From a virus, in the IMG/VR virus record IMGVR_UViG_3300046453_000134, positions 1 through 49,966 of that record: 49,966 bases of DNA. The stretch is one strand, 5' to 3'. The notes under the pieces are model-generated. The model did no database searches, had not been told where the DNA came from, and worked only from the letters and a program-made list of their open reading frames with translations. The position numbers and the translations under genes are program-made. Shown here one piece after another: positions 2,200-48,376 of the stretch (positions are counted from its first letter, which is position 1; every line of letters begins with the position of its first letter).

Positions 2200-2973
2200 T
2201 TACAAAGCTACTCCGCAAATATCCTTAGTACCTGTTGGATAAGTTTGTGTAATTTTTGATTGATCCAGTAGGAACTCGATCGAAACATCTTTGTTCGCAT
2301 CAGTTGCTGCTAAATTAAAAAAATTAGAGGTTAATGAAAAATATAGGTTATCGAGTTTAGAAGGAAACGTTGCAAAATAACCTTTGTTAACCCCATTAAA
2401 AACTAAACCAACTTGATTAGAGTTCTGATTAATATAGATACCAATTTTTTGGTAGCCATCGGAAGTAACTTCCGGAGCTAAGTTAAAAAGATCAGAAACT
2501 ACCGCACTATCATTTGATGTAGTTTTAATATAAAAGTTATTAACCGTAGGTCCATGTTGGTACGCAACTATAAAATTCACAGCCTTACCATTCTGCATAA
2601 TGCCTGCTGCAAGAGTTGGGAAAATATTTACATAGCCTGTATTACCTAATGTAGGAACTTTAATTTTATATTCAAAAGCTATAATTCCAGTGGTGGGTAT
2701 AATTTTGTCACCACGTGTATAGAGCGAAGCTTGAGAATCATTTGCTGCTAATACCCTTGTCAGATAATCCTGACTATAAGCCGCATAAATTGGACTTTGT
2801 TGAGATGTCTTATAAGAAAACTTATTTCCTGTAATAGTTGGAAACTTCTGAATAGAAGTATTACCTAAAGATTGCAACTGAGTTAATGTTGCATCAAAGC
2901 TATACGTACATTCAGCAAATACACTACTGATTCCACTAAAGCCCATTACTGTTGCTAAAATAATATTTTTCAC
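2200..2973 (-). CDS. Secreted protein, DUF4882-like, paralogue of the gene at 30111-31049
   Basis: A 257-residue protein with a clear signal peptide (MKNIILATVMGFSGISSVFA, cleavage before ECTYSFD). The mature part looks like an all-beta secreted domain. The C-terminal half shares motifs with the protein encoded at 30111-31049: GYQ-IG-YINQNS, NG-NKGY-ATFPSKL, and a final YP-GT-DICGVA with paired cysteines. I associate this with the Acinetobacter family DUF4882, from memory. The start is GTG at 2973-2971 with AGGGTAAC upstream. It lies between holin and endolysin genes, so it may be expressed late. The role is unknown; a periplasmic or secreted lysogenic-conversion protein is possible. Confidence 0.75.
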   Translation of the reverse strand: MKNIILATVMGFSGISSVFAECTYSFDATLTQLQSLGNTSIQKFPTITGNKFSYKTSQQSPIYAAYSQDYLTRVLAANDSQASLYTRGDKIIPTTGIIAFEYKIKVPTLGNTGYVNIFPTLAAGIMQNGKAVNFIVAYQHGPTVNNFYIKTTSNDSAVVSDLFNLAPEVTSDGYQKIGIYINQNSNQVGLVFNGVNKGYFATFPSKLDNLYFSLTSNFFNLAATDANKDVSIEFLLDQSKITQTYPTGTKDICGVAL

Positions 2974-3076: not shown

Positions 3077-3092
3077 ACCGCCCAAAGGCGGT
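3077..3092 (-). terminator. Weak hairpin after the holin-like gene
   Basis: ACCGCC/GGCGGT stem with a four-base loop overlaps the stop region of the holin-like gene. It is followed only by a broken T tract (ATTATT), so termination is probably partial. Confidence 0.4.
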
Positions 3093-3481
3093 TAACTATT
3101 TTGAATATCATCTTTAGCTTTCTTAAACTCTTTGATCACTTCAACAATTGTCTTGCCCTCTTGCTTGTCAATAAAGTTAAAGATCCATCTGACCAAAGCC
3201 CAACCTGGTAATCCGCAAACAAAGAAGAAGCCTCCTAACGTAATCATCCCCCAAATATCGGTAACCCATTCATGAAGGCCCCACTTCACAATGATGAATG
3301 AGCCACCTGCCAAACTTGATACGACTGTACAAATAAGGCCGACTGCCCATTCTTGAGGTGAGCGTGGCATACGTGTCATCAAAACAACTGCTGCAACTAA
3401 TGCGACCGCTAAAGTCACCATAATTGCTGCACCGTAAAATTTTAAAAGTGCTGTTAAACCGCTTGTGGAAACTGGTTCCAT
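3092..3481 (-). CDS. Holin-like membrane protein
   Basis: A 129-residue protein with three predicted membrane segments (about residues 12-36, 45-66 and 78-100) and a charged C-terminal tail rich in Lys/Glu, a class I holin topology. It is close to the endolysin gene and ends the block downstream of the polysaccharide cassette. It would form lesions in the inner membrane to release the signal-less endolysin. GGAGAG sits well placed before the ATG. No specific holin family was recognised, so the call rests on topology, size and neighbourhood. Confidence 0.65.
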   Translation of the reverse strand: MEPVSTSGLTALLKFYGAAIMVTLAVALVAAVVLMTRMPRSPQEWAVGLICTVVSSLAGGSFIIVKWGLHEWVTDIWGMITLGGFFFVCGLPGWALVRWIFNFIDKQEGKTIVEVIKEFKKAKDDIQNS

Positions 3482-3507: not shown

Positions 3508-3534
3508 AAAAAACCCTAGCTTTTCAGCTAGGGT
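3508..3534 (-). terminator. Intrinsic terminator after the polymerase-like gene
   Basis: Perfect nine-base stem ACCCTAGCT/AGCTAGGGT with a short loop and a run of T on the minus strand. It separates the Wzy-like gene from the holin-like gene. Confidence 0.8.
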
Positions 3535-3554
3535 CTGTGAGGTTTGTTTGTTGG

Positions 3555-4733
3555 TTACGTAGTGGTTTCTACATTAGCCTTTGCAGCATTTCTCCTACTG
3601 ATCTTATCTTCGAAAACCATGTAAATGAAGAACAAGAATATTGGAAATAAGAAAGAAATCTTAGTCAGCATGAAAATTAAAACGAAAAGTTTATTACTAA
3701 AACCTTTAACATTTAAGATAAGTAAAATTAATAAAAATAGCCCAATCACCCCTGTTAAAAGATAAGTAAATACAAAGAGCGTAGCATCTTGAATAGAAGC
3801 AATATTTCGCCCATATGCATATTGTTCTTCTTTGTAAATGTGTAGATCGTAAGAGTATAGACCCGTACCACCAATTAAAAGAACTGGATTATTAAGTCTA
3901 GATTCCCATGCATACTCAACCAAATTAGTTCGTAAAATAGTATTAGCGTTATCAGATACACCATCTGAGAATCGGTCTTTCTGAGAATTATAACCAAAAT
4001 AAACTAATGGCAATCCAATAATAATTGCTGTAATTAGAATCTTTGGGCGCTTAATTAATCCAGATTTTAGCAACATTGTGACTAAAAGTAGAGAGCCGAC
4101 AAGGAAAGCAACTGAGGATAAGGTTAAGATAATCGAAACTGGTAGAAGAAAGTCTTTCTTTTTAAAGTTACTATTTTTAACTAGGTACGGTAGATACAAT
4201 GCCAAGGTATAAGCAGCAAAGTTAGATGGCTCCCAGAAAAGTCCAGCAGGTCGAAATACTGTCGAGCCGCTATAATCCATTGATGTACGCTGTTCAATGC
4301 CAAACATTCCTAACAGATCAAACTTCAGTCCAACTCCATAGTAAAGTGCGAACTGTATTAATAGATAGAAAATATGGAATAGCGCTACTTTCCTAAGTAT
4401 TAATGCATAATCCACTTTATTGAAAGACCAAAAGATCATTAATGCAAGAATAATTAATGAAAGCCGGTCTAATATTTTAAAAAAGAACGTATCTCTATCA
4501 TCAGGGATTTGCAGGTATATGTTTGGAAAGAAAAAAGCCAAACTTGTATAAACAATAAACCCAACCAACATGATTACTGTTGGGACAAGTAAAGTTTTAT
4601 TAAATTTCGCCTCAAATTTAATAGTCAAAAGATAAATCAAAAGAAAGCCTATGCCGGCTATGCCACGCAAGCGGAAGTAACTATCAATAGATATACAGAA
4701 GACCGCCAAGTACAGAAAAACTTTATTGTTCAT
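3555..4733 (-). CDS. Wzy/O-antigen-polymerase-like membrane protein
   Basis: A 392-residue polytopic protein with roughly ten to twelve hydrophobic segments and one larger hydrophilic loop near residues 250-310. The region around PAGLFWEPSNFAAYTLALYLPYL is of the kind found in O-antigen/capsule polymerase and ligase families. Such proteins polymerise or attach lipid-linked oligosaccharide repeats in the inner membrane. Inside a prophage, with an acyltransferase nearby, it recalls Pseudomonas phage D3, which replaces the host polymerase linkage (established for D3; inference here). It is AT-rich, has no strong ribosome binding site and its own terminator, consistent with a separately acquired gene. 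Confidence 0.65.
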   Translation of the reverse strand: MNNKVFLYLAVFCISIDSYFRLRGIAGIGFLLIYLLTIKFEAKFNKTLLVPTVIMLVGFIVYTSLAFFFPNIYLQIPDDRDTFFFKILDRLSLIILALMIFWSFNKVDYALILRKVALFHIFYLLIQFALYYGVGLKFDLLGMFGIEQRTSMDYSGSTVFRPAGLFWEPSNFAAYTLALYLPYLVKNSNFKKKDFLLPVSIILTLSSVAFLVGSLLLVTMLLKSGLIKRPKILITAIIIGLPLVYFGYNSQKDRFSDGVSDNANTILRTNLVEYAWESRLNNPVLLIGGTGLYSYDLHIYKEEQYAYGRNIASIQDATLFVFTYLLTGVIGLFLLILLILNVKGFSNKLFVLIFMLTKISFLFPIFLFFIYMVFEDKISRRNAAKANVETTT

Positions 4734-5210
4734 TTAAGCAAGAGTAATTGACTATTTGAATTGTTAAATATATTAACAAGAATGTTTATTTTTTTCACTT
4801 AATTTAACAAAGGTTCCACTACTCACCAATTGTGTAAACTTGAATGATATGTAGATCTTTGGTAATTTTGTGTATTTATTAAACAGCATTGAAAGATGGG
4901 CGTAACATCTAAACTATTGGTAATTAAAAAATATATAGATTAGTTATTCATATATAAAATAAACTAATTTTTAAATATTTCAAAATTATTTTTCTTAAAA
5001 TCCGTTACTTGATCAATAAAAAAGCATCTAGTTAGATGCTAAATTTTTGGTACTAAAAATCCCGACTAAAAAGTCAAAGCTTGGTAAATTTTGTTGAGCG
5101 TTGTCAATCTTCAGGCTATTTAAGTAAAAATTTTAAGATTCATTTAAAGCAATATACTTACACTTTAGTAGAAATAGATTTCAAACAAAATAGTTTTGGA
5201 GATATAAATA
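4734..5210. other. AT-rich intergenic region between divergent surface genes
   Basis: About 480 bp separating the leftward polymerase-like gene from the rightward sialidase-like gene. It holds a short hairpin with A/T flanks at 5022-5040 (AGCATCT/AGATGCT) and presumably divergent promoters. I see no convincing coding frame: the open frame from 5081 overlaps the downstream gene and has no ribosome binding site. Confidence 0.5.
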
Positions 5211-6398
5211 ATGAAAATAAAACTAAACCCATATATATCAATAGGTTTATTTTTAAACTTATCATTAACCGCTTGCGCCAACCAAACATTACCCCCAACA
5301 GTATCAGCAACAGCTATACCCACAAACACTCTCATTCGTGATGATATTCCTGTCAAAGAACTTACTAAAATCGAGGCGTTTACAGGTAAAAAAGGTGAAA
5401 TTCAAAGAATCCCGTCAATCTTAAAACTAAAAGGTAATCAAATTTTATATTTTTGGAGTGGTGGTGTTGAAGGCTATGATGGAGATCTTGAGGGTGCAAA
5501 ATTATACAAAAGGATTCTTCAATATAATTCTAAAGGACAAATTGTTGATAATGGAAAAAAAGAATTATTTTTCTCATCCCCTGATTTAAAGGGAGTGGCT
5601 AAACAACCCATGTTGGGTAGAACTAAAGATGGGAGAATTATATTGATGTTTAATGTAAGACAGCCATCTTTAGAGAAAAATGGATATCGAATCTATAAGA
5701 TTATGCTTGCATTTTCAAGTGATGAAGGAAAAACTTTTACTAAACCAATAGAGATTCCTAATAACCCTATTGCAAAAACACAGTCTCTTGGTACTACTGG
5801 CACTATTTTAACTCTTCCATCAGGTCGTTTAGTTTTTCCTGTTTATTACATTGATTATTTAAGTGCAATAGGAATGGTATATTCCGATAATTCTGGTGTA
5901 ACTTGGAAATATGGACAGATATTTAAGCCAACATATACAGTTCCTTTTGAACCTTCTATTACCCTAGATGAACATAATCACATTATCATTTCATCCAGAA
6001 CTTCCAACCAACCTTTCAGAGAATTATCAATTTCCACTGATGGTGGTGAAACTATTCAAGATTTAAATTTAAATAAAGAACTTATAACACCTCCTGTTGC
6101 GGCTTCAATTTTATATGATGCTGATAATAAGTTTTTTTTACATAGCTCCCCAACTGGAAATGCACGAGATCACTATAAAATTCAGCTGAGCTTTAATGAC
6201 ACCAAAAATTGGGGGAAAAGTTATTCGCCCTTTCCTCCATCTTTTTATATAGGTTATTCACAAATCATAAAATTAGACAAAAATAGTTACGCCGTTGCTG
6301 TAGAAGGGCTAATGAATAAATATGTTCTTAATAGTTCTGAAAATGTTGGGATATTTATTTTTAATAAAAAAGAGTTATTTGACCATATTTCACAATAA
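5211..6398 (+). CDS. Sialidase-like (BNR/Asp-box) lipoprotein
   Basis: A 395-residue protein. The N-terminus (…LSLTAC, Cys22) is a lipoprotein signal, so it should be anchored at the cell surface or periplasm. The fold is read as a sialidase six-bladed propeller: an RIP motif at residues 66-68, which in sialidases supplies an arginine of the carboxylate-binding triad, and three Asp boxes, SSDEGKTF (about 169), SDNSGVTW (about 225) and STDGGETI (about 276). It may cleave or bind nonulosonic acids of surface glycans. It is the only rightward gene in the surrounding 30 kb, has GGAGA before its ATG and its own terminator, and is AT-rich: an independently expressed moron. Substrate unknown. Confidence 0.75.
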   Translation: MKIKLNPYISIGLFLNLSLTACANQTLPPTVSATAIPTNTLIRDDIPVKELTKIEAFTGKKGEIQRIPSILKLKGNQILYFWSGGVEGYDGDLEGAKLYKRILQYNSKGQIVDNGKKELFFSSPDLKGVAKQPMLGRTKDGRIILMFNVRQPSLEKNGYRIYKIMLAFSSDEGKTFTKPIEIPNNPIAKTQSLGTTGTILTLPSGRLVFPVYYIDYLSAIGMVYSDNSGVTWKYGQIFKPTYTVPFEPSITLDEHNHIIISSRTSNQPFRELSISTDGGETIQDLNLNKELITPPVAASILYDADNKFFLHSSPTGNARDHYKIQLSFNDTKNWGKSYSPFPPSFYIGYSQIIKLDKNSYAVAVEGLMNKYVLNSSENVGIFIFNKKELFDHISQ

Positions 6399-6449
6399 AA
6401 ATTTCCTCGTATATCCCTAATATAGAGAATTAGTTAAAACTATAAAATA

Positions 6450-6471
6450 AAAGGATGTGTATACATCCTTT
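6450..6471 (+). terminator. Intrinsic terminator after the sialidase-like gene
   Basis: Nine-base stem AAAGGATGT/ACATCCTTT with a GTAT loop and T-rich tail on the plus strand, 50 bases past the stop codon. Confidence 0.8.
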
Positions 6472-6554
6472 TATTTATTGTTAGGATAAAAGAGACTAAT
6501 AAATCTATTGTGCTAACAACTTGCCAAGATAAGCTATTCACATCAGATATATCA

Positions 6555-7616
6555 TTAAGTGAGGTTCTGGATGCTTTTAGCTTCTTGAGAAGTCAATTTT
6601 TGAGTAGTCACTTTTTTGCCAATCTTGATAAAAGGTTTCTCATAAACTCTATAAGAAATATTGGCTATGACGATTGTAGCAATTGAAGTAACAACTATAC
6701 ACAGCATTGGTTGATAAACTAATTTGTTAACAAACATATAGACGACTGGGTGTAATAAATAGACTCCATATGTAGCTTCACCTAGATTTGCAAAAGGTTT
6801 AGCAAACCAGCTAGGAAGGTCAATTTCTAACTTATAAAAACCAAGCGTTAAAGCAATTGAAGCCAACGCAAAAACAATTCGGTTGGAACCAGTTGTAATA
6901 TTAATTTGATCACCATCTACTGGATACAAGCATAAAACAGCAAGCGAGATTACAACCAGAACATTTGCTATATTCTTCATGCTTACACTATGGAAGTTGT
7001 AATACAAAGCAAGTCCACAAGCATATAAGAAGAAATTATTAAAGGGATTAATGTAGGTTTCCCACTGAGCTGATAAAGTTCTACTTGGATCTAAAGCAGA
7101 GAAAGCAAAATACATTCCTACAGCAATTAGCGCTAAAACAGCTAAATTACCTAATTGCTTATTTTGGGCATACAGCATGATAAGGAAGGGTGTGAAAGCA
7201 TAGTAGAATGTTTCATTACCAATGCTCCAAGCTCCAATATTTATATATTCGGCTGGTGCAACAAAGCCAAACAATAATGTCACATTCAAAAAGATTTTAT
7301 AAATATCAAGCTGGCCATTAACTATAAAACCTATCCCTGCAACAATAGCAATAGCTATCCATAAGAGTGGCAAAAGTCTAAACAAGCGACGTATAAAGAA
7401 TACAATAGATGTATGAAAATCTTTAATATAGTTGTTATATACAACTCCCATACTTAACCCAGAAAGTACAAAGAATATTGAAACACCATAAATACCAAAA
7501 TTTCCTAGAATGTTCCCAGCTTGTGGGTGAAAAGCCTCCCAACTGATTAAATGATAAATCATGATCGCAAATGCCATCATACCTCGCAACCAATCCAATG
7601 ATTCAAATCTTTTCAT
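6555..7616 (-). CDS. Acyltransferase-3 family (OafA-like) membrane O-acyltransferase
   Basis: A 353-residue polytopic protein with the family N-terminus: SLDWLRGMMAFAIMIYHL at residues 5-22 carries the R and H expected in the active region, and FFIRRLFRLLPLLW near 73-86 is the second conserved arginine motif. About ten membrane segments fill the rest. Members transfer acetyl groups to lipopolysaccharide, capsule or other exported sugars, and several phages use them to change O-antigen serotype and block re-infection. It is the first leftward gene after the structural operon and is flanked by very AT-rich DNA. Acceptor sugar unknown. Confidence 0.85.
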   Translation of the reverse strand: MKRFESLDWLRGMMAFAIMIYHLISWEAFHPQAGNILGNFGIYGVSIFFVLSGLSMGVVYNNYIKDFHTSIVFFIRRLFRLLPLLWIAIAIVAGIGFIVNGQLDIYKIFLNVTLLFGFVAPAEYINIGAWSIGNETFYYAFTPFLIMLYAQNKQLGNLAVLALIAVGMYFAFSALDPSRTLSAQWETYINPFNNFFLYACGLALYYNFHSVSMKNIANVLVVISLAVLCLYPVDGDQINITTGSNRIVFALASIALTLGFYKLEIDLPSWFAKPFANLGEATYGVYLLHPVVYMFVNKLVYQPMLCIVVTSIATIVIANISYRVYEKPFIKIGKKVTTQKLTSQEAKSIQNLT

Positions 7617-7993
7617 ATTATCAACTACATTTTATCGGCTATCCTTAAAATCGGAACAAGACTTAAACATAATCAATAAAATTAATACTACTAAACAGAA
7701 ACAAAATGTAGCCAATTGTTAAATTAAAAATAATATCATTAAAAATCAAATTCTTAAAAAACAAAATATCAATATAATATTATTCAAATAAATATAAAAA
7801 AACAAATAATTAAATTTAAATTAATTTAAATATTAATCATAATTAACATATATTATTAAACAACATAAAAATAATATTATAACAATACACAATATATTAA
7901 AATTAAAATCTTATAAGATCTATTATATTATTAAAACTAATCATAAAATTATTTCTTGGGCATAGTAAAAGCACCCAATTGGGGTGCTATAAA
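7617..7993. other. Very AT-rich non-coding stretch with terminator at its right edge
   Basis: Nearly all A and T from 7680 to 7950, with no coding frame. The right edge holds the intrinsic terminator of the structural operon (7967-7988). The composition change marks the boundary between the ancestral tail module and the acquired surface cassette. A promoter for the acyltransferase gene is likely here but cannot be picked out of such sequence. Confidence 0.6.
7967..7988 (-). terminator. Terminator at the end of the head-tail operon
   Basis: AGCACCC/GGGTGCT stem, short AATTG loop, then TTTTACT on the minus strand, six bases past the stop of the tail-tip gene. It should end late structural transcription unless antiterminated. 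Confidence 0.75.
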
Positions 7994-10483
7994 TTAACCT
8001 TCAGAAGTACTTTGAGTAATTTGATTTGAGTAGTTCCAGACTGTGTTTTCCCATACATCCCGTACTGCTACACGAATGTAATATGGAGTTGTTGGTTGTA
8101 AGTCTCCAATTGTGGTCGTTAAATCAGTACCGGTCCACGAAGGTGGTGTTTGTGTTGGATCAAAATTAGAAGTACTGCTGAGCCAAACAGCATAGTCTTT
8201 CAGGTCTGGAACTTCACTAGGTACCCATGTCACTGTGACTGAATCAATAGTTGCTGAGGTATAAACATTTAGAAGCACTGGCGGTACCGGATTGCTAATA
8301 CTTAATTCAGCAAAAGTACTGATCTGATCTCCATTTTTACTGGCTACACGAATTGTATAAGCACGGCCTATTCCATCAGTTTTAGCCTCTTCAATTGAAT
8401 AGCTGTAATCCGTGTTAGTTGTATCAACTTGTCGGATCATTTCACCATTCGACCAAACTTGAACCCGATAACCATCTGCACCGGTTGAGCTTTGCCATTG
8501 AACTTTGAACGTGGTACCAACAAAAGGTGATTGAAGCGATAAGCCCTTAACACCCGCAGGACGTCCACCCGATAAGGTATAGCTATATGCTGTTACCTCA
8601 TCTAATGTTTGTTCTTTACGCTCCAAACCGTTAAAGCTAGTGAACTTCAAGAAGATCTGTTTACCTACTAAATTTTCATTAAATCCATACTCAAAAATAG
8701 CCTTATCTAGTCGTACAAACGGCTCCCCTACATTGTGATTTTGTGCATCATCAAAACGTCCACGTAGAACATCACTCAATGTATAAAGACCGGATCCGTT
8801 TAAAGTGGCCACTTGATAATTGAAATACTCGTCACCGACTTTACAAAGTGTTTGGTCAGCTTGAGCATCCTCTAAGGTTCCACTAAAAATCTGACTGACT
8901 GTATTGAGTTCAACTTGCAAAGCTATGTCTTCGGCATCAATGGCCGTTACTAATTGGCCATATCGAGCAGAACCGTAAATAGTTCCGATCATTTCATAAG
9001 TCGTATTATCAAGACTTACCCATACATTACAGCCACCCCAATTGATGCCACCAGACACCGCAACCCATACCTGATTTTTACCGTCTGTTAGATCCAGCGG
9101 AGGTTCAAAAATAACAGGTGCATTCACATTACCTGGTTCTTCATTACCGCCTTGATAACCATTAGATGCTTGTGAATCGTATTCAATGGCAGATCTTGAA
9201 CCTACAGCAAGTTCCTCAGCCGTAATGGTTAATTCACCGAACTCGTCTTCCTCAATACGTGTAATACGTACAGGAAATTGATTTAAGCCTAATGCTTCAT
9301 CTGTAATAGTCACAATATCCATTGGCTCTAACCGGCAATACTTCCAGCCTAAGGTAAACTCATATTCATTACGCACATAAAGCAATCGTTGTAAGCGAAG
9401 CTGTGCGACATGGCGAGCTATTTTGGGCTCACAAAAATAATGGCTTTCTACTGGATCCTCGGTACGTAGGCCAAACATCTCAATGTTGGCTTGGTCCTTG
9501 GCCTCAGTGGTTTCTGTGTTGTACTGGTTATAGCGATTGATATATTCAATCTGCACATGATTATAAGCATCTGTATCACGGCTACGGCGTACTCGTACAG
9601 GTTCATCATCACCTATAAAATCATCATCAGTTAAGTGATAAACAGGTGTGAGATCAGGAGTAAAAGTTACTCCGTTACCTGTAATTGCTGAGTCACCAAA
9701 AGAGCGAATTTTTAAACCGTCTGGACTTGGTACCACAGCACAATTTACAGCTTCTATAATCTCATTAATCGTTTCATAAGCTGCGCGTTGTTCTGTGAAT
9801 GCTGGACTAATAAGAAGATTGGCTGCTCGGCAATAAGTACGGAACTCTTCTAAATCGGCCATGTTTAGATTAGGCGCGGCTCCATGACGTGGATGTGTAA
9901 TAAAGTCTTCAATGACATCTGCCGGATTAGCATCATCAATAGTATCTGACAAAGTAATTGTACTAATCACTTCAAAGTTATGATTTGAAAGGCTGGCACT
10001 ATTCCCCATCTCATAATTAGCAGCTGCCACATATCCTAGATAAGGATAATTAATTGCTTGATTAGGATGTTTTGAAACTAGCCAACCCCACGGTGGGTTA
10101 TTATTGCCGTCGAATAATTCAAACTTAAGCTGATCAATTGGATCTAAAACAATGGATCCTTCTTGCTTGGAAACAAATTGCTCTTTATCAACCCATATCA
10201 AGCCAATCTTTTTAATCTGGTTCTCGCACAAACCAAGCATGAGCGAAGCACTATAACTAAATGTTGTATTGCTGGTTTTAGTGCTCCCACCCTTACCGCC
10301 TGATTTCTCGACCGTAGTATGAGGCGTCGCTAGAAAATCACCGTACCAAAACATGTTTGCCGCTACACGGGTTTTTCCATACACAAGGGGCTGACAAAGC
10401 CCGTACGCTGATTGCTGGATTCGCATTGAATTAATGCGCGTATCCGTTGTACTAATCGTGGTACCGCCAAATAATCCACCCAT
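7994..10483 (-). CDS. Tail tip / host-specificity protein with fibronectin III repeats
   Basis: An 829-residue protein starting directly after the NlpC/P60-like gene (stop TAA abuts the ATG). The N-terminal 450 residues match the central tip/baseplate hub proteins of siphoviruses (lambda J-like or DUF2163-cluster phages). Residues about 640-829 form two FN3-like domains, with alternating beta strands and typical phrases such as DGYRVQVW and TTPYYIRVAVRD. It should sit at the distal end of the tail tube and contribute to adsorption and tail completion. It is the last gene before the operon terminator. Confidence 0.8.
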   Translation of the reverse strand: MGGLFGGTTISTTDTRINSMRIQQSAYGLCQPLVYGKTRVAANMFWYGDFLATPHTTVEKSGGKGGSTKTSNTTFSYSASLMLGLCENQIKKIGLIWVDKEQFVSKQEGSIVLDPIDQLKFELFDGNNNPPWGWLVSKHPNQAINYPYLGYVAAANYEMGNSASLSNHNFEVISTITLSDTIDDANPADVIEDFITHPRHGAAPNLNMADLEEFRTYCRAANLLISPAFTEQRAAYETINEIIEAVNCAVVPSPDGLKIRSFGDSAITGNGVTFTPDLTPVYHLTDDDFIGDDEPVRVRRSRDTDAYNHVQIEYINRYNQYNTETTEAKDQANIEMFGLRTEDPVESHYFCEPKIARHVAQLRLQRLLYVRNEYEFTLGWKYCRLEPMDIVTITDEALGLNQFPVRITRIEEDEFGELTITAEELAVGSRSAIEYDSQASNGYQGGNEEPGNVNAPVIFEPPLDLTDGKNQVWVAVSGGINWGGCNVWVSLDNTTYEMIGTIYGSARYGQLVTAIDAEDIALQVELNTVSQIFSGTLEDAQADQTLCKVGDEYFNYQVATLNGSGLYTLSDVLRGRFDDAQNHNVGEPFVRLDKAIFEYGFNENLVGKQIFLKFTSFNGLERKEQTLDEVTAYSYTLSGGRPAGVKGLSLQSPFVGTTFKVQWQSSTGADGYRVQVWSNGEMIRQVDTTNTDYSYSIEEAKTDGIGRAYTIRVASKNGDQISTFAELSISNPVPPVLLNVYTSATIDSVTVTWVPSEVPDLKDYAVWLSSTSNFDPTQTPPSWTGTDLTTTIGDLQPTTPYYIRVAVRDVWENTVWNYSNQITQSTSEG

Positions 10484-11340: not shown

Positions 11341-13188
11341 TCAGCCGTGATTTTTTAAAAAGTTAGCAAGTATAATTCCCATTATTCTGAAAAATATATT
11401 TTTCGGATGGAGTAGATAAGCGGTAAATTCACTTGAATCATCGCCCAGATAATAAAACTTATTTTTTTCATTTAGACCGGTTAAGTTATACCAATCTAAA
11501 ACAGGTACCCCGTAAAGCTTTCCGATATCCTTCATAATATTGGCATATGCTTCATTCATTAACCCGACTACATTAGGATCTTTATTCGGCACATTCGTTG
11601 TGTCGTACTCGTTATACCACCCGCGAATAGGTGTTATTAAGAATATCTTACAGGCTGGATTAGATGAGATTACATGTTCAATAGAAGCTTGTAATGCACC
11701 CGCATAAGTAGTTTTATCGAATTGGCTTCCAATTGGGGCAATTTGTCCAACAGCTACACCGGTTCTACAGTCATTAGCTCCGCTGGTAATTGTTGTCGCA
11801 TATGTATTTGCAAAATTAAATAAACTAATTTCACCTACATAAATTTGTGGCATCGTCCAACCTGATCGACCGTGATTATCGATCACACAGCCCAAGATTT
11901 CTTTTACAGCAGACTGATAACCTTCACAGGTTTGACCTTGTTCAACATGTGAATCTACAAATTGCTGAAGGAAATACCACGTAATCGAATCGCCAAATGT
12001 CGCCAGAACCTGATTTAGCCAATGATTAAAAGCATCTGTCGGCAAACTTGAAGCAGGCAACTTGCTATAGAACTGATCAAAAGTAAATTGGAAGGCATAA
12101 TTCATATTTGGATTAACGGTGTATTCAGCATCATCAGCCAAACTGGTAGTACTATAAATACCATCGTGCCCAGTTGTCGCAGCAATATAAACTGTTTGGC
12201 CTACAACTGATGTTCTTAAGCCAATATATTCACCAGCATTAAACTCAAGTTGAATAGGAATTTCATTCAAACCGACGTCAACATTTATCTCTACAAAACG
12301 CTGACGAATAAAATGGGTTCCAGACTTTTTATATACGCCGACTTGCACAGTACCTGAGGCAGATGCATAGGTTGAGAACTTCGTCACAATACCGTCTTTA
12401 GTTGCAGCTTTTGCAGGAATCCACTGTGCAATATTTGCATTTCCGGATGCGAAAACAGGCTTGTACTGAACCCCAAATCGCTGCAGGCCAACCACACTAT
12501 CTAAAGTAAATGTATTCCCATCCACACGGCTATCAATATCTGTAAAAGCGGAGGCTATCCCCTCCAGATTAGGGAACATATGGAAGGCAATTTGTAAAAT
12601 TGCTGTCGCACCAGAATTGCTTGAAGTAATGGCAAATGAGTTAGCGTTCGGATTTGAATCCACATAGTAAGAAGGTGTAGATGTAGACTTTTGAATGTAT
12701 GAAACTACACCACCTGCTGTGACAGAAAATGCAAGATATTCCCCTGCGCTTAAAGCAATATTCAAGTTATCAAGTTCATTTAACCCAATTTTCGTTAGAC
12801 TTAAAGTGGCTACAGTTCGGTTTAAGTTAAAGGTACTTCCCGATAAGTTAAAAACCTTAATTGTTGCTGTACCTGTAGCAACCTTAGACACCAAAGAAAT
12901 TTTACGAATTACAGTACCTGCTGCTGCAGGTTTATTGAGTACATATGTTCCCGATGGCACATTATTTAATGTGGCCCCCGTATTGTCTGTTGAACCAATT
13001 ACAATATCTTGCCCAATTGCTTTATTAAAATCTTTAAGCTCAGACATCTTGTTTTCAACCGTATTCTCTACAAACTCGGTTGATGGAACTTCATTTTCTA
13101 AATATTCGATGAGTTGGGTTTGAGCGGTTTTAAACCCTTGCTCGGTAACCCCCGAACCAGTAAATTGATCAGCACTAGGTAAAGGCAT
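11341..13188 (-). CDS. Receptor-binding tail protein with C-terminal SGNH hydrolase domain
   Basis: About 615 residues from the ATG at 13188, chosen because GGTGA precedes it; upstream frame starts fall in the preceding hairpin. The N-terminal 45 residues look like a virion-anchoring helix and the middle is repetitive beta-rich sequence. The C-terminus is an SGNH/GDSL esterase: FGDSITW (Ser401), SGW (Gly block), SGANDCR (GxND block), and LLHPKN (His594). The usual Asp three residues before that His is replaced (YLLH), so a Ser-His dyad is possible. Such domains remove O-acetyl groups from surface glycans during adsorption. It lies within the tail operon. Confidence 0.75.
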   Translation of the reverse strand: MPLPSADQFTGSGVTEQGFKTAQTQLIEYLENEVPSTEFVENTVENKMSELKDFNKAIGQDIVIGSTDNTGATLNNVPSGTYVLNKPAAAGTVIRKISLVSKVATGTATIKVFNLSGSTFNLNRTVATLSLTKIGLNELDNLNIALSAGEYLAFSVTAGGVVSYIQKSTSTPSYYVDSNPNANSFAITSSNSGATAILQIAFHMFPNLEGIASAFTDIDSRVDGNTFTLDSVVGLQRFGVQYKPVFASGNANIAQWIPAKAATKDGIVTKFSTYASASGTVQVGVYKKSGTHFIRQRFVEINVDVGLNEIPIQLEFNAGEYIGLRTSVVGQTVYIAATTGHDGIYSTTSLADDAEYTVNPNMNYAFQFTFDQFYSKLPASSLPTDAFNHWLNQVLATFGDSITWYFLQQFVDSHVEQGQTCEGYQSAVKEILGCVIDNHGRSGWTMPQIYVGEISLFNFANTYATTITSGANDCRTGVAVGQIAPIGSQFDKTTYAGALQASIEHVISSNPACKIFLITPIRGWYNEYDTTNVPNKDPNVVGLMNEAYANIMKDIGKLYGVPVLDWYNLTGLNEKNKFYYLGDDSSEFTAYLLHPKNIFFRIMGIILANFLKNHG

Positions 13189-13204
13189 TTTTATCACCAT
13201 CAAT

Positions 13205-13228
13205 AAAAAACCCTGCAATTTGCAGGGT
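13205..13228 (-). terminator. Intrinsic terminator between DUF2163 and receptor-binding genes
   Basis: ACCCTGCA/TGCAGGGT stem and six-base T run on the minus strand, 21 bases past the stop of the upstream gene. Confidence 0.75.
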
Positions 13229-32321: not shown

Positions 32322-32996
32322 TTAGCTGAAATAATTATCTACTCTAGCTTTCACTTTAGGATCTAAATCTTCCTGTATAAAAAAACAGTCACGATATTTT
32401 TCAATCAATAAGTGGATGAATTTCTGTTTATCGGGAACAATATGTGCCAACATTAATTGTGATGAAGCTGTGATTAAATTATTAGATTGTCTCATTAGTG
32501 TCATCACAAGATTCTCATCAAAACCTATTTTTTCGCGTGTAAAAGAATGTTTACCCGTATGAACAAACGAGTTTAGTTGATTGAGATGATACTTTTTAAA
32601 TTCAGCAAACATATTGATTACTGGCTTAGCAGGTAAATCAAGTTTCTGCAGCATATCCAACATTTCACTTAACGTAGGAAATGTATCTTTGACAAACTGC
32701 TCGTCAAAAGTATAGCCAAAACTTAATTTAGAAATTTGATGATTTGATGCGCAAAATAATAACCAGTAAGCTCGTACTGCAGACTCAAACTGTGAACGGA
32801 ATAAGATCATTGCTTGAATTGGCATATCTAATGTCAATAAAGTATTAACCCCTATTCCATGCTCAAATGAAATATAAATACATTGCTCAACCAAATCTAA
32901 TCGTGGTCCGCAATCAATCACTGTGCTGTTTATGATCTCTTCTTTAAGTTCCAAGATCATTTGTAGTGATTTTTCTAAAAGTATTCCCCGTTCCAT
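32322..32996 (-). CDS. Hypothetical all-helical protein, DUF5677/DUF6988-like
   Basis: A 224-residue protein, helical throughout. The segment MILFRSQFESAVRAYWLLF near residue 65 resembles a motif in DUF5677/DUF6988-type proteins, which group loosely with HEPN-like helical families, and LNSFVHTGKHSF near 140 carries conserved-looking histidines. No Rx4-6H ribonuclease motif is evident. It is the first leftward gene after the truncated metallopeptidase copy, and has its own terminator. Abortive-infection-like function is possible but unsupported. Confidence 0.5.
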   Translation of the reverse strand: MERGILLEKSLQMILELKEEIINSTVIDCGPRLDLVEQCIYISFEHGIGVNTLLTLDMPIQAMILFRSQFESAVRAYWLLFCASNHQISKLSFGYTFDEQFVKDTFPTLSEMLDMLQKLDLPAKPVINMFAEFKKYHLNQLNSFVHTGKHSFTREKIGFDENLVMTLMRQSNNLITASSQLMLAHIVPDKQKFIHLLIEKYRDCFFIQEDLDPKVKARVDNYFS

Positions 32997-34904: not shown

Positions 34905-35058
34905 GGTTTCCTTTGAAAATTAAAGATATGCTAAATTTTATAGGCTAATCTATTCAATTAGAAGTAAAACACGCAAGTTTACTTATTACTTATAATGATA
35001 TTCTCTGCTCAAGACTATATAATAAGCAATAATTTTCAAATACTTGATTTTATCAAAA

Positions 35059-36147
35059 ATGAAAAAACATTTCTTAAATGTTCTTGATCATTATCTATAT
35101 GCAAAACACCAGCCATATAATACCAACAAATTACAGGGGCATTATCAAGCCCTGTCTAAGGACATCACAAGTACAGTTAAAACCTGGCTTGATAAGTATT
35201 CTGACTCTTCTATTAGCTATGAAGTAAGTTGGTCACATGGAAAAGGTAATTGGGCAGAGGTACCTTGGGTTTTGTGTACAAATACAGATATAACTAACTC
35301 GGCGCAACGTGGTTATTACCTGGGTATATTGTTTGCAGCTGATATGAGCTCATGTTTCATGGGGCTATTGCAAGGAGTGACAGATGCAAATCAAGATGAT
35401 TTAGTAGATTTCGCTTCTCTTGCATTAGAATACGTAGGCTCAAACTCTCCTTACTCAAATCTTAAATTAGGTAGCATTGACTTAAAAGCGACTAAAACTT
35501 TAGGTAAAAAATATCAAAAATACGCTATTAAAAATTTTGAATACAAAAAAGATTTATTAAAAACTATAGATGACAAAATTATCGAAGATCAATTCAAAAT
35601 TCTAATCAAAGATTATGAAACACTATATGCTAATGCAAATAAAAATCTTGCTAATTTAGTTCCAGTATCAGATCACTCATACCAGGCTTTATTACAAAGT
35701 CATGAAGAGCAAGTTGATATCACACAGCTTATTGAAGTTAAAGAGACTGTACCTGGTACTTTATCCATACAGCAGACTAAATTTAAGGTTTCAAAAGACA
35801 AAAGCAGAAAGGCCTTAAAACTTGCTAACTTTCAATGCGAAATTGATCCATCTCATATGACATTTATAACAAAAAATAAGAGGCTTTATGTTGAGGGACA
35901 TCACCTAATACCCATGAGCCAGCAACTAAATTTCAATGTCTCTCTAGATGTTACTTCAAACATCGTTTGCTTATGCCCAAACTGTCATAGAGCCCTACAT
36001 TACGGCGATAAAGGAGTTATTAAAGAAAAGCTTCAAATTTTATTTGAATTACGCAATTCCCGTCTGATCAAGCAAGGAATTCATTTAACTCTTAAAGAAT
36101 TGCAGAATATTTACCTTAAGACTGGTTTAGATCAACAATACGATTAG
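35059..36147 (+). CDS. DUF3578 (MrcB-like) HNH endonuclease
   Basis: Start at ATG 35059 (about 362 residues); the longer frame begins at TTG. Residues 1-190 match the MrcB N-terminal/DUF3578 domain (HYLYAKHQPYNTNKLQGHYQALSKDI, then ISYEVSWSHGKGNWAEVPW), used by modification-dependent restriction proteins to recognise DNA. The C-terminus is an HNH nuclease with all key residues: Cys260, GHHLIP (about 282), CPNCHRALH (about 306-314). It probably cuts modified or otherwise foreign DNA. A promoter-like TATAAT lies at 34991. The next gene begins 16 bp downstream in the same direction and appears to be its partner. Confidence 0.75.
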   Translation: MKKHFLNVLDHYLYAKHQPYNTNKLQGHYQALSKDITSTVKTWLDKYSDSSISYEVSWSHGKGNWAEVPWVLCTNTDITNSAQRGYYLGILFAADMSSCFMGLLQGVTDANQDDLVDFASLALEYVGSNSPYSNLKLGSIDLKATKTLGKKYQKYAIKNFEYKKDLLKTIDDKIIEDQFKILIKDYETLYANANKNLANLVPVSDHSYQALLQSHEEQVDITQLIEVKETVPGTLSIQQTKFKVSKDKSRKALKLANFQCEIDPSHMTFITKNKRLYVEGHHLIPMSQQLNFNVSLDVTSNIVCLCPNCHRALHYGDKGVIKEKLQILFELRNSRLIKQGIHLTLKELQNIYLKTGLDQQYD

Positions 36148-36163
36148 ATTGAGATTTTTTAAT

Positions 36164-37057
36164 ATGAACAATATAGATTTTACTTTTTTTGCAACCATTT
36201 TCCTTACAATTGTTTCTATTATTATTGCCTTTGCTGCTTTTTATTACACAAGAGGTTCCTATCTCCTTACACTTAAACAATTTGAGAAAAAGAAAAATAG
36301 ACGAGAAAAAGCATCTGAATATTTTGAAAAATATATTAATAAACCACCATCTTATAAAATAAATACATTTACAAAAAAGATTGACAGTGATGAATTAACA
36401 GAGAATATTGGGATTCCTTCTGAATTTACAGATTTCTTTATTAAAAATTTTCCTGATCAATTTTACTACTTCCTTAGTTTAATAAAAACTAATCAGGAGT
36501 ATTTCACCCTCATTAAAGAAAACAATAGAGAAGAATTAATTAGTAGAGTAAGATTTTTACGATTGAAAATGATTATATTTTTACTGTTTTACTTCATATT
36601 AGGAATGTTGAATTTTGCTTTAATTCTAATTTATGAAAAATACATATCCCCGCTTCCATTAGATCTAAGATTAATGACTATAGTATTATTACTAACACTA
36701 GCAATAACAACATCTTGCTGTGCAGTTTTCTCAATAATACATTCTCAAAAATATAACAATATAATTAAAATATTAAAAAAATTAAATAAGTTACAGGTGA
36801 AACAGTATAATTTTTCATTTAAATCATTTATTAAAAAGTATAATCCCCTTCGATCTAAAAGAAAAAATAAGAATACAAATGTATGTCAACTCTGTAAAAA
36901 ATCTGCTCCATTTAGAGATAAAAATAGTAGTCCCTATTTCGAAATTTATAGTATTAAAAAACTTTCTCCCAGTGAAACAGATACAGTAGAGAAGACTATT
37001 TCACTTTGCTCAAATTGCTATAAGAAAATGAATATAATAAATACTAAAGCAAATTGA
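36164..37057 (+). CDS. Membrane-anchored protein with degenerate (histidine-less) HNH domain
   Basis: Start at ATG 36164 (297 residues). One N-terminal membrane helix (about 8-28), a helical region, a TM pair (about 135-160 and 170-195), then a C-terminal domain that aligns to McrA-type HNH: C241-x2-C244, APF (248-250), SPYFEIYSI (256-264), and LCSNCYKKMN (281-290). The metal-binding cysteines and a Glu remain, but the catalytic pair HH is YS and later His positions are Tyr and Asn, so it should be catalytically dead. It follows the DUF3578-HNH nuclease by 16 bp and shares its terminator. It may be a membrane effector or sensor regulated by DNA. Confidence 0.6.
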   Translation: MNNIDFTFFATIFLTIVSIIIAFAAFYYTRGSYLLTLKQFEKKKNRREKASEYFEKYINKPPSYKINTFTKKIDSDELTENIGIPSEFTDFFIKNFPDQFYYFLSLIKTNQEYFTLIKENNREELISRVRFLRLKMIIFLLFYFILGMLNFALILIYEKYISPLPLDLRLMTIVLLLTLAITTSCCAVFSIIHSQKYNNIIKILKKLNKLQVKQYNFSFKSFIKKYNPLRSKRKNKNTNVCQLCKKSAPFRDKNSSPYFEIYSIKKLSPSETDTVEKTISLCSNCYKKMNIINTKAN

Positions 37058-39158: not shown

Positions 39159-40100
39159 TCATGCTGCCCCCTGCAATGTGCCTTTGAACCCAACTTGCTT
39201 GAGATACGGCTCCCATTGTTTGGCCTGAACTGGATCTGCAAGTTTTACTGCGATACGTGCAGCAAGTTGTTCATAGCTCTCGTTACCTTCAGCATATTTG
39301 CTTGCAAACTCTGGATGAATAGAAAGTTTTTGTGCAAATGAGTAAATCTGTTTTGAACTAAGAGTGCGTGATTCTCCCTGCGGGACTCGAACCTGTGTTC
39401 CAGTATTTGAAGTTTTAACTTGTCCCCGTGCTTGGTATTTGCCACATGCGTTGATTAACCAATCCGCAAAGTGGTAATTCAAAAGTTCATCACAAAGATT
39501 CTTCTCGGCGTTGTAGAGTTCAAATGCACGTAATTCTCGATCGAACCAAGTCGCGTTTTTAATCTGCTCGTAAGTTTCCTGATCAGTTGCCAAACGAATT
39601 TCTTCACCAAGTTTTTTCAAACTCAACCATGTTTTTTTATTTTTAGATTCATCTAATAGATTCCCTGATAGGTTCTGTGTCCCAATATTGGGACTGGTCT
39701 CGGTACCGTTTTTGGGACTAGTTGCGGTCCCACTATTGGTACTAGTACCGTTTTTGGAACCAGTACCGAAATTGGAACTAGTTCCGTTATTGGTACTAGT
39801 CCCATTTTTGGGACTGGTTAAATCATTTTCTTCACGCCCCATCACACCAATTAACTGGTAAACCTTCACACCATTTCCTGTGATTTCACCAGTGAATCTA
39901 ATTAATGAAATTGCCTCAAGCTCATCTAATACTTTGATCACTGTTTTACGGTTAAGTACAGTGTCTTTAACCATACGTTTAATGCTTGGGTAGCACTTAT
40001 GAGATTCACCCGCTCTATCAGCCAAAGCCAATAAAACGAGTCTCTGACTTGAGGTTTTCACCTCTGCTTTGAAAGCCCAAATGGTTGCGTCCAGACTCAT
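39159..40100 (-). CDS. Replication initiator, O-like, with iterons inside its gene
   Basis: A 313-residue protein. The N-terminal 85 residues form a winged-helix domain (SSQRLVLLALADRAG, then CYPSIKRMVKDTVLNRKTVIKVLDELEAISLI), as in lambda-O-like initiators and phage helix-turn-helix replication proteins. Residues about 93-137 are a six-residue repeat (T-S-x-x-N-G) encoded by 18-bp palindromic repeats, and the C-terminus is helical. It should bind those repeats and recruit the host helicase, with no helicase loader gene evident. It overlaps the upstream gene in a TAATG. Confidence 0.7.
   Translation of the reverse strand: MSLDATIWAFKAEVKTSSQRLVLLALADRAGESHKCYPSIKRMVKDTVLNRKTVIKVLDELEAISLIRFTGEITGNGVKVYQLIGVMGREENDLTSPKNGTSTNNGTSSNFGTGSKNGTSTNSGTATSPKNGTETSPNIGTQNLSGNLLDESKNKKTWLSLKKLGEEIRLATDQETYEQIKNATWFDRELRAFELYNAEKNLCDELLNYHFADWLINACGKYQARGQVKTSNTGTQVRVPQGESRTLSSKQIYSFAQKLSIHPEFASKYAEGNESYEQLAARIAVKLADPVQAKQWEPYLKQVGFKGTLQGAA
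39690..39819. repeat. Iteron array, putative replication origin inside the O-like gene
   Basis: Seven copies of a near-palindrome GGNACTAGTNCC begin at 39690, 39714, 39738, 39756, 39774, 39792 and 39810, spaced 24, 24, 18, 18, 18 and 18 bp. Each is separated by a six-base AT-rich spacer such as GTTTTT. An AT-rich tract (about 39605-39672) borders the array. Iterons in the initiator gene next to an AT-rich stretch is the lambda ori design. The last copy is incomplete (GGGACTGGTT). The origin role is inferred. Confidence 0.65.
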
Positions 40101-40393
40101 TACTCACCAGCCTTAGGCTTTACATATCCGCCCATGTATTCAATCTTTTGAGCCTTATACAAACTCATTTCAATTTCCCCAGCCAAATACAAATTAATGC
40201 GGCCACGGCGAGCAAGTTCTTGTCTAAACTCTTCACGTGTTATGGCTGCATTGTTTTCGTTGTATCCACGTTTACGGAGATTCGCCCTATTACGTTCAAG
40301 CATTTTGTTTAGAAGATTAAGTGCGGGCTCATACCATGACTGGATGCCTGCACACTGTTTATGTTCAGGAAGGTGTTTAAATTGTTGGTTCAT
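40100..40393 (-). CDS. Hypothetical early protein (97 residues)
   Basis: A basic protein (MNQQFKHLPEHKQCAGIQSWYEPALNLLNKMLERNRANLRKRGYN...) with helical, Arg-rich centre. It is coupled at both ends: TAATG with the O-like gene and ATGA with the 91-residue gene upstream. In Acinetobacter phages such small genes precede the replication protein. It may bind nucleic acid; not recognised. Confidence 0.55.
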   Translation of the reverse strand: MNQQFKHLPEHKQCAGIQSWYEPALNLLNKMLERNRANLRKRGYNENNAAITREEFRQELARRGRINLYLAGEIEMSLYKAQKIEYMGGYVKPKAGE

Positions 40394-40665
40394 GACACCT
40401 CCGCCCGTGCTAATTCTTCCGTAGTTAAACGACGCTTTGCTTCTAACTCAGCAATTGATGCTGATCTGAAGAATTGAACTGGTAGAGCTAACTGCTTCCC
40501 GCATGCTGACTTAACAAAAAGTCGTTTAGGTGTGCTGTAGTAGAAACCAAACACTTCAAAAATTTCTTGATGGTCCAATTCATTAACAACAACCATGTCA
40601 CCTACTACAAATTCTTCTGAGTTGAGTTCGGTTGGTTGTTCTGATAAATTGTTTTGCATATTCAT
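40390..40665 (-). CDS. Hypothetical early protein (91 residues)
   Basis: An acidic N-terminus (SEEFVVGDMVVVNELDHQEIFEVFGFYYSTPKRLFVKSACGKQLALPVQFF) with a beta-rich pattern resembling a small SH3-like fold, then a charged helix (AELEAKRRLTTEELARAEVS). It lies between cII and the replication genes and overlaps the next gene by four bases. Role unknown. Confidence 0.55.
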   Translation of the reverse strand: MNMQNNLSEQPTELNSEEFVVGDMVVVNELDHQEIFEVFGFYYSTPKRLFVKSACGKQLALPVQFFRSASIAELEAKRRLTTEELARAEVS

Positions 40666-42152: not shown

Positions 42153-43559
42153 ATGAGTTTTATTATAGAAAATATAAAATTAAATGAAAAAGAATTACTA
42201 TTAAGTAAGAATACGTTTGGAAATAGTAATATTTTTACTTTATTAACTGGAAAGAATGGCGTTGGGAAAACAAGATTACTAACTTCTCTCATTTACTTTT
42301 TTTCACATGTTGAAAATTCTAATGAAAATAAACCACCAGAAAACTTTAAGATATTTAATTCTGAAACCAAAGCATCTTTAAAATTTTCAAATAAGCCGGA
42401 AAGAATTATTGTTCATACAAATAGCAAATATAATAAATTTCCTACTAGGTATGATTATGACTTTCAAAAACCCAAAAACTATTATAACTTAACAGAATCA
42501 AGTTATTTTTCACCCTACTCTGATTATGAAGAAAGCTTTTTTGCACAAATTTTATTAAATAATAATATAAATTTAAAAGCAATTTCGGATACATTATCTT
42601 ATTTAAACTACGCTCCATGTTTAAAATTAAGACTAAAATTAGATTGGTTAACTTTTTCAGCTGGATATTTTGATAAAGCTATAGAAGTATATAAAGATAT
42701 ACTTGAAAATGAACTAAACTTTAATACAAAAATTTCTTTAAAAAAAGCTAGTAGAACAGATAAATATTTTCTTTCTTCATTATTACATGCTGGTGAAAGA
42801 AGAAATAGGATGTTAACAGTTAAAGAAGTTAAAACAATTTACCAAGCTTTTAATAATTTTGATATTATTGATGGTTTTATGATAGTAGATATTGATCTAA
42901 AATCTAAAAAATTTAATTATCTAAATACTAATAAAACTATAATAAAAATTTTATTAAAAAGTAAGCTTATAAGATTAGTTACCGCATTACTTCTTAAAAA
43001 TTCTGACGAAAAGTCATTTTTTACATCAAATCAACATGTTAATTTCAATGATTTAAGCTCAGGCCAACAAGCTATAATTACTACATTGCTTGGTATTTCT
43101 GGAGTTATTTCAGATAACTCATTAATTTGTATTGATGAACCAGAAATTAGCCTACATCCTGAATGGCAATCAGAAATCATTAATCAATTACAAATGGTTT
43201 TCCAAGACATACAAGGATGTCATTTTTTAATCGCCACCCATTCCCCTCAAGTCGTATCAAGTTTAAAATCAGAAAATAGTTTTATTGTTAATTTAGAGAA
43301 AATGGAAACATATAAAGCTAGTGAACATAACCATAAGTCTGCAGATTACCAGTTAGCAAAAATTTTTGACACTCCTGGCTATAATAATGAATATTTAATT
43401 AGGATTGGGTTAGTAATTCTTTCTAAAATTACTAAACGAGAAAATTTAGTTAAAGAAGATATTGAAAATATCAAACTATTTAAGGAGATAAAAGAATCAC
43501 TTCCACAAGATGATGCAGTTTATTTTTTGATAGAACAAATTTTATCTTTGGCAGAATAA
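42153..43559 (+). CDS. AAA/ABC-type ATPase, PtuA-like (Septu defence)
   Basis: A 468-residue protein with Walker A GKNGVGKT (residues 33-40), a signature-like LSSGQQA (about 303), Walker B LICIDEPEISLHPEW (about 324-338) and an ATHSP switch (about 362). This is the domain order of OLD/SMC-like defence ATPases such as PtuA of Septu, which pairs with a small HNH nuclease, as it does here six bases downstream. It is very AT-rich compared with early phage genes. It lies directly after the repressor gene, so transcription in the lysogen is expected. It would sense infection and license the nuclease. Confidence 0.75.
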   Translation: MSFIIENIKLNEKELLLSKNTFGNSNIFTLLTGKNGVGKTRLLTSLIYFFSHVENSNENKPPENFKIFNSETKASLKFSNKPERIIVHTNSKYNKFPTRYDYDFQKPKNYYNLTESSYFSPYSDYEESFFAQILLNNNINLKAISDTLSYLNYAPCLKLRLKLDWLTFSAGYFDKAIEVYKDILENELNFNTKISLKKASRTDKYFLSSLLHAGERRNRMLTVKEVKTIYQAFNNFDIIDGFMIVDIDLKSKKFNYLNTNKTIIKILLKSKLIRLVTALLLKNSDEKSFFTSNQHVNFNDLSSGQQAIITTLLGISGVISDNSLICIDEPEISLHPEWQSEIINQLQMVFQDIQGCHFLIATHSPQVVSSLKSENSFIVNLEKMETYKASEHNHKSADYQLAKIFDTPGYNNEYLIRIGLVILSKITKRENLVKEDIENIKLFKEIKESLPQDDAVYFLIEQILSLAE

Positions 43560-43565
43560 AATTTT

Positions 43566-48312: not shown

Positions 48313-48352
48313 AATCTTTCTCGATAAAACCAATAATGAACAGAGAAAAATT

Positions 48353-48376
48353 AACCCAGCCATTATTGGCTGGGTT
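48353..48376 (-). terminator. Intrinsic terminator upstream of the hydrolase gene
   Basis: AACCCAGCC/GGCTGGGTT stem and TTTTT on the minus strand, likely ending leftward transcription from the right-hand genes. Confidence 0.7.

Follow-up and report, generated by a model that had tools for sequence, protein, structure and literature searches.

The seroconversion module of Pseudomonas phage D3 comprises a polymerase and an O-acetylase that alter the polysaccharide on the lysogen's surface, the target being the O-antigen, and also has an inhibitor peptide; to our knowledge, it has no sialidase. A polymerase and O-acetylase pair is likewise found in the DNA studied here, the 49,966-base IMG/VR virus record IMGVR_UViG_3300046453_000134 (hereafter the window, i.e., the whole stretch, which comes without an attached host genome), together with a gene for a lipoprotein sialidase, and there the target would be the capsule and not the O-antigen. 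In the prophage CUS-3 of E. coli K1, the O-acetyltransferase NeuO adopts a left-handed beta-helix fold, unlike the acyltransferase-3 of the window, and we know of no anchored sialidase in that prophage. Nor are the Ltp-type lipoproteins of Streptococcus thermophilus phages known to us as glycosidases. The likeness to CUS-3 lies in the masking of a sialic acid capsule by a prophage O-acetyltransferase against phages whose tailspikes cleave it (PMC9659370, PMC3046976). The likeness to Ltp lies in a surface lipoprotein that a prophage encodes and that takes part in superinfection exclusion (PMC3952083), and implies no sequence relation to the window sialidase.

In Acinetobacter, prophage-borne Wzy polymerases and Atr acyltransferases acting on the capsule are already known. 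Wzy2Ph is a prophage polymerase of 392 residues and of the Wzy_C family, to which the beta-D-GalpNAc-(1->4)-D-Galp linkage between K58 units of isolate BAL114 has been assigned (PMC13228068), and Wzy1Ph, of 347 residues, belongs to another family, EpsG (PMC13228068, PMC9241936). Both are encoded by prophages near tail genes, as is the polymerase of the window, whereas the sections consulted mention no lipoprotein sialidase for the corresponding prophages (PMC13228068, PMC9241936). In A. baumannii NIPH 329, the gene atr29 occupies 39593-40639 of a prophage contig of 42,249 bases, and strains with atr29 or atr30 have a 4-O-acetylated nonulosonic acid (NulO, which is Pse or Leg) in their capsule, Pse5Ac7Ac in K46 and Leg5Ac7Ac in K5; about 75% of NulO residues are acetylated in K46, and the precise role of Atr29 and Atr30 is, according to the authors, still to be confirmed (PMC6586298, whose consulted sections do not discuss tailspikes). 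A later paper, judging by its title, reports 4-O-acetylation for K58 as well (cited in PMC12053666). The window Atr shares with these enzymes of NIPH 329 and SDF the acyltransferase-3 family and a prophage location near tail genes. The Atr29 and Atr30 prophages carry a sialidase domain in their tailspike, whereas the window combines a separate lipoprotein sialidase with a tailspike of the GDSL-esterase type. The three genes of interest are the following.

3555-4733, minus strand: putative Wzy-type capsule polymerase, 392 residues, weak Wzy_C match, putative Wzy2Ph relative
5211-6398, plus strand (opposite to the late genes): lipoprotein sialidase, 395 residues, BNR_2 PF13088 at 5e-16
6555-7616, minus strand: acyltransferase-3 of the Atr29/Atr30 family, 353 residues, Acyl_transf_3 PF01757 at 3e-26

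A first-pass annotation, made from the letters of the window, had described three genes between tail and lysis genes as a D3-like surface-conversion cassette with an added sialidase. Open reading frames and family matches confirm that the genes are intact and stand in the described positions, order and strands. The protein families and the prophage context support a conversion cassette made of a polymerase, an acetylase and an additional sialidase, and the three genes probably rebuild the host capsule of an Acinetobacter lysogen. The D3 likeness holds for the polymerase and the acetylase of a prophage but no further, because the closest relatives, Atr29/Atr30 and Wzy1Ph/Wzy2Ph, target the capsule and not the O-antigen; the plain D3 or O-antigen reading is rejected on this ground, and D3 serves as an analogy only. 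Moreover, no conserved small open reading frame of the D3 inhibitor-peptide type stands beside wzy, in a search restricted to the sequence adjoining that gene.

The preferred reading, to which we give a probability of roughly 0.58, is that of a lysogenic capsule-conversion cassette in which an anchored sialidase removes NulO, Atr masks the rest, Wzy relinks the repeat units, and NulO-recognising phages are excluded. The lipoprotein would be an active sialidase, exported and anchored in the lysogen envelope, probably in the outer membrane, and would cut terminal NulO side branches, most likely of the Pse type, off the capsule, whether at the cell surface or while still in the periplasm. A phage tailspike whose receptor was that same sugar would be the source of the enzyme's catalytic domain. 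Atr would 4-O-acetylate the NulO left over, so that sialidase tailspikes could not cut it, and Wzy would alter the linkage between repeat units. With their receptor removed, masked and relinked, NulO-recognising phages, including those with sialidase tailspikes, would fail to adsorb or to digest their way in. We infer the sialidase activity, the exact substrate, the envelope location, the expression timing and the phage exclusion from the features described below.

By its family, its predicted BNR propeller fold and its active-site residues, the lipoprotein groups with GH33-like sialidases. It matches the PDB sialidase 4bbw (3e-12), and its AlphaFold model (pLDDT 81) finds essentially nothing but sialidases among the top PDB matches, from Propionibacterium, Micromonospora and other sources (Foldseek, 7lbu at 1.8e-18 and 1eur at 1.9e-18). 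Alignment with phage and cellular sialidases reveals a complete catalytic set (R66, D92, E247, R263, R319, Y349). Over 28 sequences, E247, R263 and R319 are invariant, D92 and Y349 are conserved in at least 90%, and R66 is aligned in the rows covering it. From what is known of the GH33 family, we take R66, R263 and R319 to be the arginine triad, D92 the aspartate acid/base, and E247 and Y349 the Glu-Tyr pair. A lipobox (LTAC, residues 19-22), from which lipidation is predicted, is retained in the alleles of two other prophage contigs, L001 and L002, and dN/dS of 0.09-0.12 among the three alleles indicates purifying selection. A tailspike fragment left over by recombination is ruled out by the intact reading frame, by a lipobox and a ribosome-binding site of its own in all three alleles, and by the dN/dS of about 0.1. 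Nor does the lipoprotein belong among tailspikes, as it opens with a signal sequence and is encoded away from the tail module, whereas its relatives have tail N-termini. Inactive or truncated alleles in relatives, cited in the first-pass annotation as an outcome that would speak against a conversion role, are not found for the lipoprotein, all three alleles being intact, whereas several relatives carry a truncated or split Atr.

On sequence identity, the window Atr is a member of the family linked to 4-O-acetylation of capsule NulO. It is 76% identical to the gene product at the Atr29 locus (contig L021) and 81% identical to an Atr30-like one (L011). The L021 gene occupies 39593-40639 of a 42,249-base contig, the exact published coordinates of atr29, and the L011 gene has 1,020 bases, the published length of atr30 of SDF, the match to atr30 being one of gene length. 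The two proteins are 80% identical to each other, in agreement with the published figure (PMC6586298). The earlier suggestion of NulO as a plausible substrate is much strengthened by this link, which argues for NulO as the probable target of the cassette.

The association of Atr with sialidases goes beyond the window. Of the 13 contigs bearing atr or its remains, twelve also encode a sialidase, ten of them in a tailspike and two as the cargo lipoprotein, the lone exception (L013) combining a split atr with a tailspike of the GDSL type; near-duplicates are included in the 13, which represent perhaps nine or ten independent lineages. Among 80 loci not chosen on either gene, the two-by-two counts are 2/1/1/76 (Fisher p=0.003, with the caution that the prophages share ancestry). 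Sialidase tailspikes also occur in the two prophages known from the literature, with Atr29 and Pse on the one hand and Atr30 and Leg on the other, and these tailspikes fall in different clades; that sialidase clades track Pse versus Leg specificity is a lead drawn from these two cases only. The three carriers of the cargo lipoprotein have a tailspike of the GDSL-esterase type instead. L033, L124, L125 and L126 combine an open sialidase tailspike with an atr that is truncated or has an internal deletion, which suggests repeated loss of atr. The first-pass annotation overlooked this association, as well as the kinship of the sialidase with tailspike domains.

Phage and plasmid searches returned no close relative of the lipoprotein sialidase, only a tail-region protein of phage MD-2021a annotated 'Neuraminidase (sialidase)', at 28% identity, and weak plasmid matches in Bacteroidota. 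A first scan of the genome_contigs collection found no close relative either, and an alignment-based scan of the same collection gave, among the matches listed, only distant cellular sialidases (Bacteroidota, Planctomycetota and others). The alignment search retrieved about twenty prophage tailspikes with a C-terminal sialidase domain, mostly from Acinetobacter-type prophages. In a tree that includes cellular sialidases, the cargo sialidases nest among the tailspike domains, as sister to L017 (support 100/98; 50% identity), inside a 13-row tailspike clade (98/96) to which the tailspike of the Atr29 prophage also belongs. To most tailspike and cellular sialidases, the cargo protein is only about 21-33% identical. 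For the sampled sequences, the simplest history would have a lipoprotein signal added to a tailspike domain; sampling for the tree and the search covered sequences other than Acinetobacter chromosomes, relatives on which could change this history. The tailspikes of L017, L021 and MD-2021a share with the cargo protein a catalytic domain, 28-50% identical, and the active-site residues, whereas they have a tail N-terminal region and usually a partner gene of about 300 codons, in place of which the cargo protein has a lipoprotein signal. The partner gene usually stands directly after the sialidase tailspike (L016:9076-9987, with equivalents in L010, L017, L020, L021, L011, L028 and L033); it matches phrog_28256 in L010 and L016, the two with a match, and has no Pfam match. 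In L004, the sialidase tailspike gene (L004:2249-4021) is interrupted by an in-frame TAG that separates the part for the tail from that for the sialidase domain, which means either a broken gene or a sequence error.

A more specific claim, to which we would give somewhat less than even odds, is that a receptor-destroying tailspike sialidase was turned into an anchored lysogeny protein that strips the receptor from the capsule of its own host, bringing about superinfection exclusion alongside 4-O-acetyl masking. The masking role for Atr is suggested by the precedent of NeuO, whose O-acetylation of the polysialic capsule protects E. coli K1 against capsule-cleaving phages (PMC9659370). If the claim is true, acetylation by Atr29 and Atr30 would exist to block the sialidase tailspikes of related phages. 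A reason would thereby be suggested for the 4-O-acetylation of capsule NulO, as it would block the tailspikes that the same prophages carry, and an enzyme type that removes a sugar rather than modifying it would be added to those of conversion. In the literature searched, in which subscription journals are thinly covered, neither a lipoprotein sialidase of a prophage nor a link between Atr and sialidase tailspikes is described; no phage pseudaminidase was found there either. Prophage-driven capsule changes in Acinetobacter already complicate capsule typing, phage therapy and the use of antibodies, and the cargo and tailspike sialidases, if active on pseudaminic acid, would be useful as tools.

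Several points weigh against the conversion cassette as proposed. Atr and the sialidase could oppose each other, given that 4-O-acetyl groups may block a sialidase; a possible reconciliation is that the cargo sialidase would clear the unacetylated minority of NulO. Sialidase activity, substrate and exclusion are themselves inferred steps. The record is a viral contig, so that the K locus of the host lies outside it. The tailspike of the cargo carriers is itself a GDSL esterase. The cargo alleles number only three, all from one phage lineage. Finally, the Wzy model has a pLDDT of 36, and the likeness of this protein to Wzy2Ph is one of length, family and context.

The anchored sialidase could instead be a release factor comparable to influenza neuraminidase, acting mainly at lysis by clearing NulO from dying cells and debris and so freeing progeny virions. 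Its receptor-destroying domain, akin to those of tailspikes, and the position of its gene near the lysis genes would agree with such a role. However, the gene is transcribed against the late genes and has its own hairpins on both sides, so that co-expression with them is unnecessary; the adjoining atr and wzy matter only during capsule synthesis, and with an esterase as the tailspike of the carriers, binding of virions to debris through NulO would be conjectural. This role thus appears unlikely. About as improbable is a tailoring of the capsule for the benefit of the bacterium, where trimming of NulO would give the phage Wzy a smaller repeat unit or alter immune recognition, phage exclusion being a by-product. 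Prophage Wzy and Pse-modifying enzymes do alter the capsule structure of A. baumannii (PMC13228068, PMC12053666), and 4-O-acetylation hides Pse from an antibody (PMC13228068); yet Wzy and Atr occur without the lipoprotein in L004, and Atr alone elsewhere, so neither requires it, and the kinship of the sialidase with tailspikes indicates phage-receptor biology.

A catabolic or host-directed enzyme, by which the bacterium would obtain sialic acids from animal glycans, would suit the GH33-like fold, as cellular sialidases of this kind exist in Bacteroidota, Akkermansia and others, but we consider it quite improbable: the nearest relatives are phage tailspikes and not cellular enzymes, the gene sits among capsule-modifying genes, and no gene for sialic acid uptake or catabolism adjoins it. 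Least probable of all is a lectin or decoy, a carbohydrate-binding lipoprotein that kept the sialidase propeller and lost its activity. Indeed, although BNR propellers are often re-used and the identity to most tailspike and cellular sialidases is about 21-33%, all six catalytic residues are retained in the three alleles under purifying selection.

Regarding the polymerase of the conversion cassette, eight hydrophobic segments are seen, and the Wzy_C match (PF04932) is weak, at E=4e-4 and under the gathering cut-off; the Wzy profile matched no PDB chain. Kinship with Wzy2Ph (XLO29423.1) is suggested by length, family and context only, and not by sequence. Wzy proteins 89-90% identical to that of the window occur in L006-L008, directly after the tailspikes.

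The window is a complete-looking Acinetobacter prophage with an integrase, a CI-type repressor, a terminase and tail genes. Over 56-67% of the 17 kb tested, Acinetobacter phages vB_AbaSI_5 and 5W and two records of MD-2021a match its structural region at 84-86% identity. The gene order is confirmed as J-like tail gene, three-gene cassette, holin-like gene and endolysin. In related prophages free of the cassette, only about 40-65 bases separate the tail terminator from the holin-like gene, whereas in the window the three genes fill this gap. The slot and its surroundings contain the following features.

1584-2129: endolysin, beyond the holin-like gene
3092-3481, minus strand: holin-like membrane protein (phrog_1024), bounding the insertion slot on the right
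3511-3536, minus strand: terminator-like hairpin that separates wzy from the holin-like gene
4734-5022, minus strand: AT-rich leader of wzy, with conserved counterparts in L001, L002 and L004
5023-5040, strand not assigned: terminator-like hairpin where the wzy leader ends, away from the gene, with a hairpin at the equivalent place in L004, there directly after atr
6445-6476, minus strand: palindromic hairpin, scored terminator-like, between the convergent sialidase and acyltransferase genes
7617-7969: AT-rich spacer from atr to the tail gene, GC content about 0.22
7970-7988, minus strand: tail gene terminator, directly followed by the holin-like gene in cassette-free prophages
7994-10483, minus strand: J-like tail protein, bounding the insertion slot on the left
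11341-13218, minus strand: tailspike with a C-terminal GDSL/SGNH esterase domain (motifs GDSI and GAND), a sialidase-domain tailspike occupying the equivalent slot in L004, a sister prophage with the same backbone

The AT-rich flanks and separate terminators described by the first-pass annotation are borne out by a GC content of 0.22-0.23 around 4751-5250 and 7501-8000 and by 7 terminator-like hairpins against 2.3 +/- 1.5 in shuffled sequence. Promoter-like sites are no commoner than chance (26 found, 26.4 expected), and promoters therefore cannot be placed. Rfam and tRNA searches gave no match. The GDSL/SGNH tailspike is possibly a capsule deacetylase.

Different subsets of the cassette occupy the same slot: all three genes in the window and in L002, wzy and the sialidase gene in L001, atr and wzy in L004, and atr alone in L013. 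The L002 set, about 96% identical in protein to that of the window, answers the proposal that the three genes be sought together in other prophages. As the wzy leader is kept in L004, where the slot has no sialidase gene, the wzy module is independent of that gene; given the differing subsets and the leader and hairpin kept in L004, the cassette genes behave as independent modules. Any of the three is present in just 4 of the 80 loci, which were drawn by the neighbouring holin-like gene, and the cassette is therefore rare.

Further genes of note lie elsewhere in the window. A second variable cargo slot, present or absent among relatives, is marked in the lysis region by a DUF4882 protein (2200-2973, minus strand, phrog_21016) that probably carries a signal sequence. 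A Septu-like two-gene defence system (42153-44216, plus strand; PtuA, PADLOC 2e-98; PtuB, 1.5e-60) directly follows the CI-type repressor. A gene pair at 35044-37057 (plus strand, opposite to its neighbours) matches type IV restriction models, its first member having MrcB_N and HNH domains, and a DUF6988 protein (32322-32996, minus strand) matches the candidate defence family PDC-S52 (7e-49). An isochorismatase-family gene (47761-48363, minus strand), immediately beyond the integrase and close to the right end, lies in what is probably flanking bacterial DNA.

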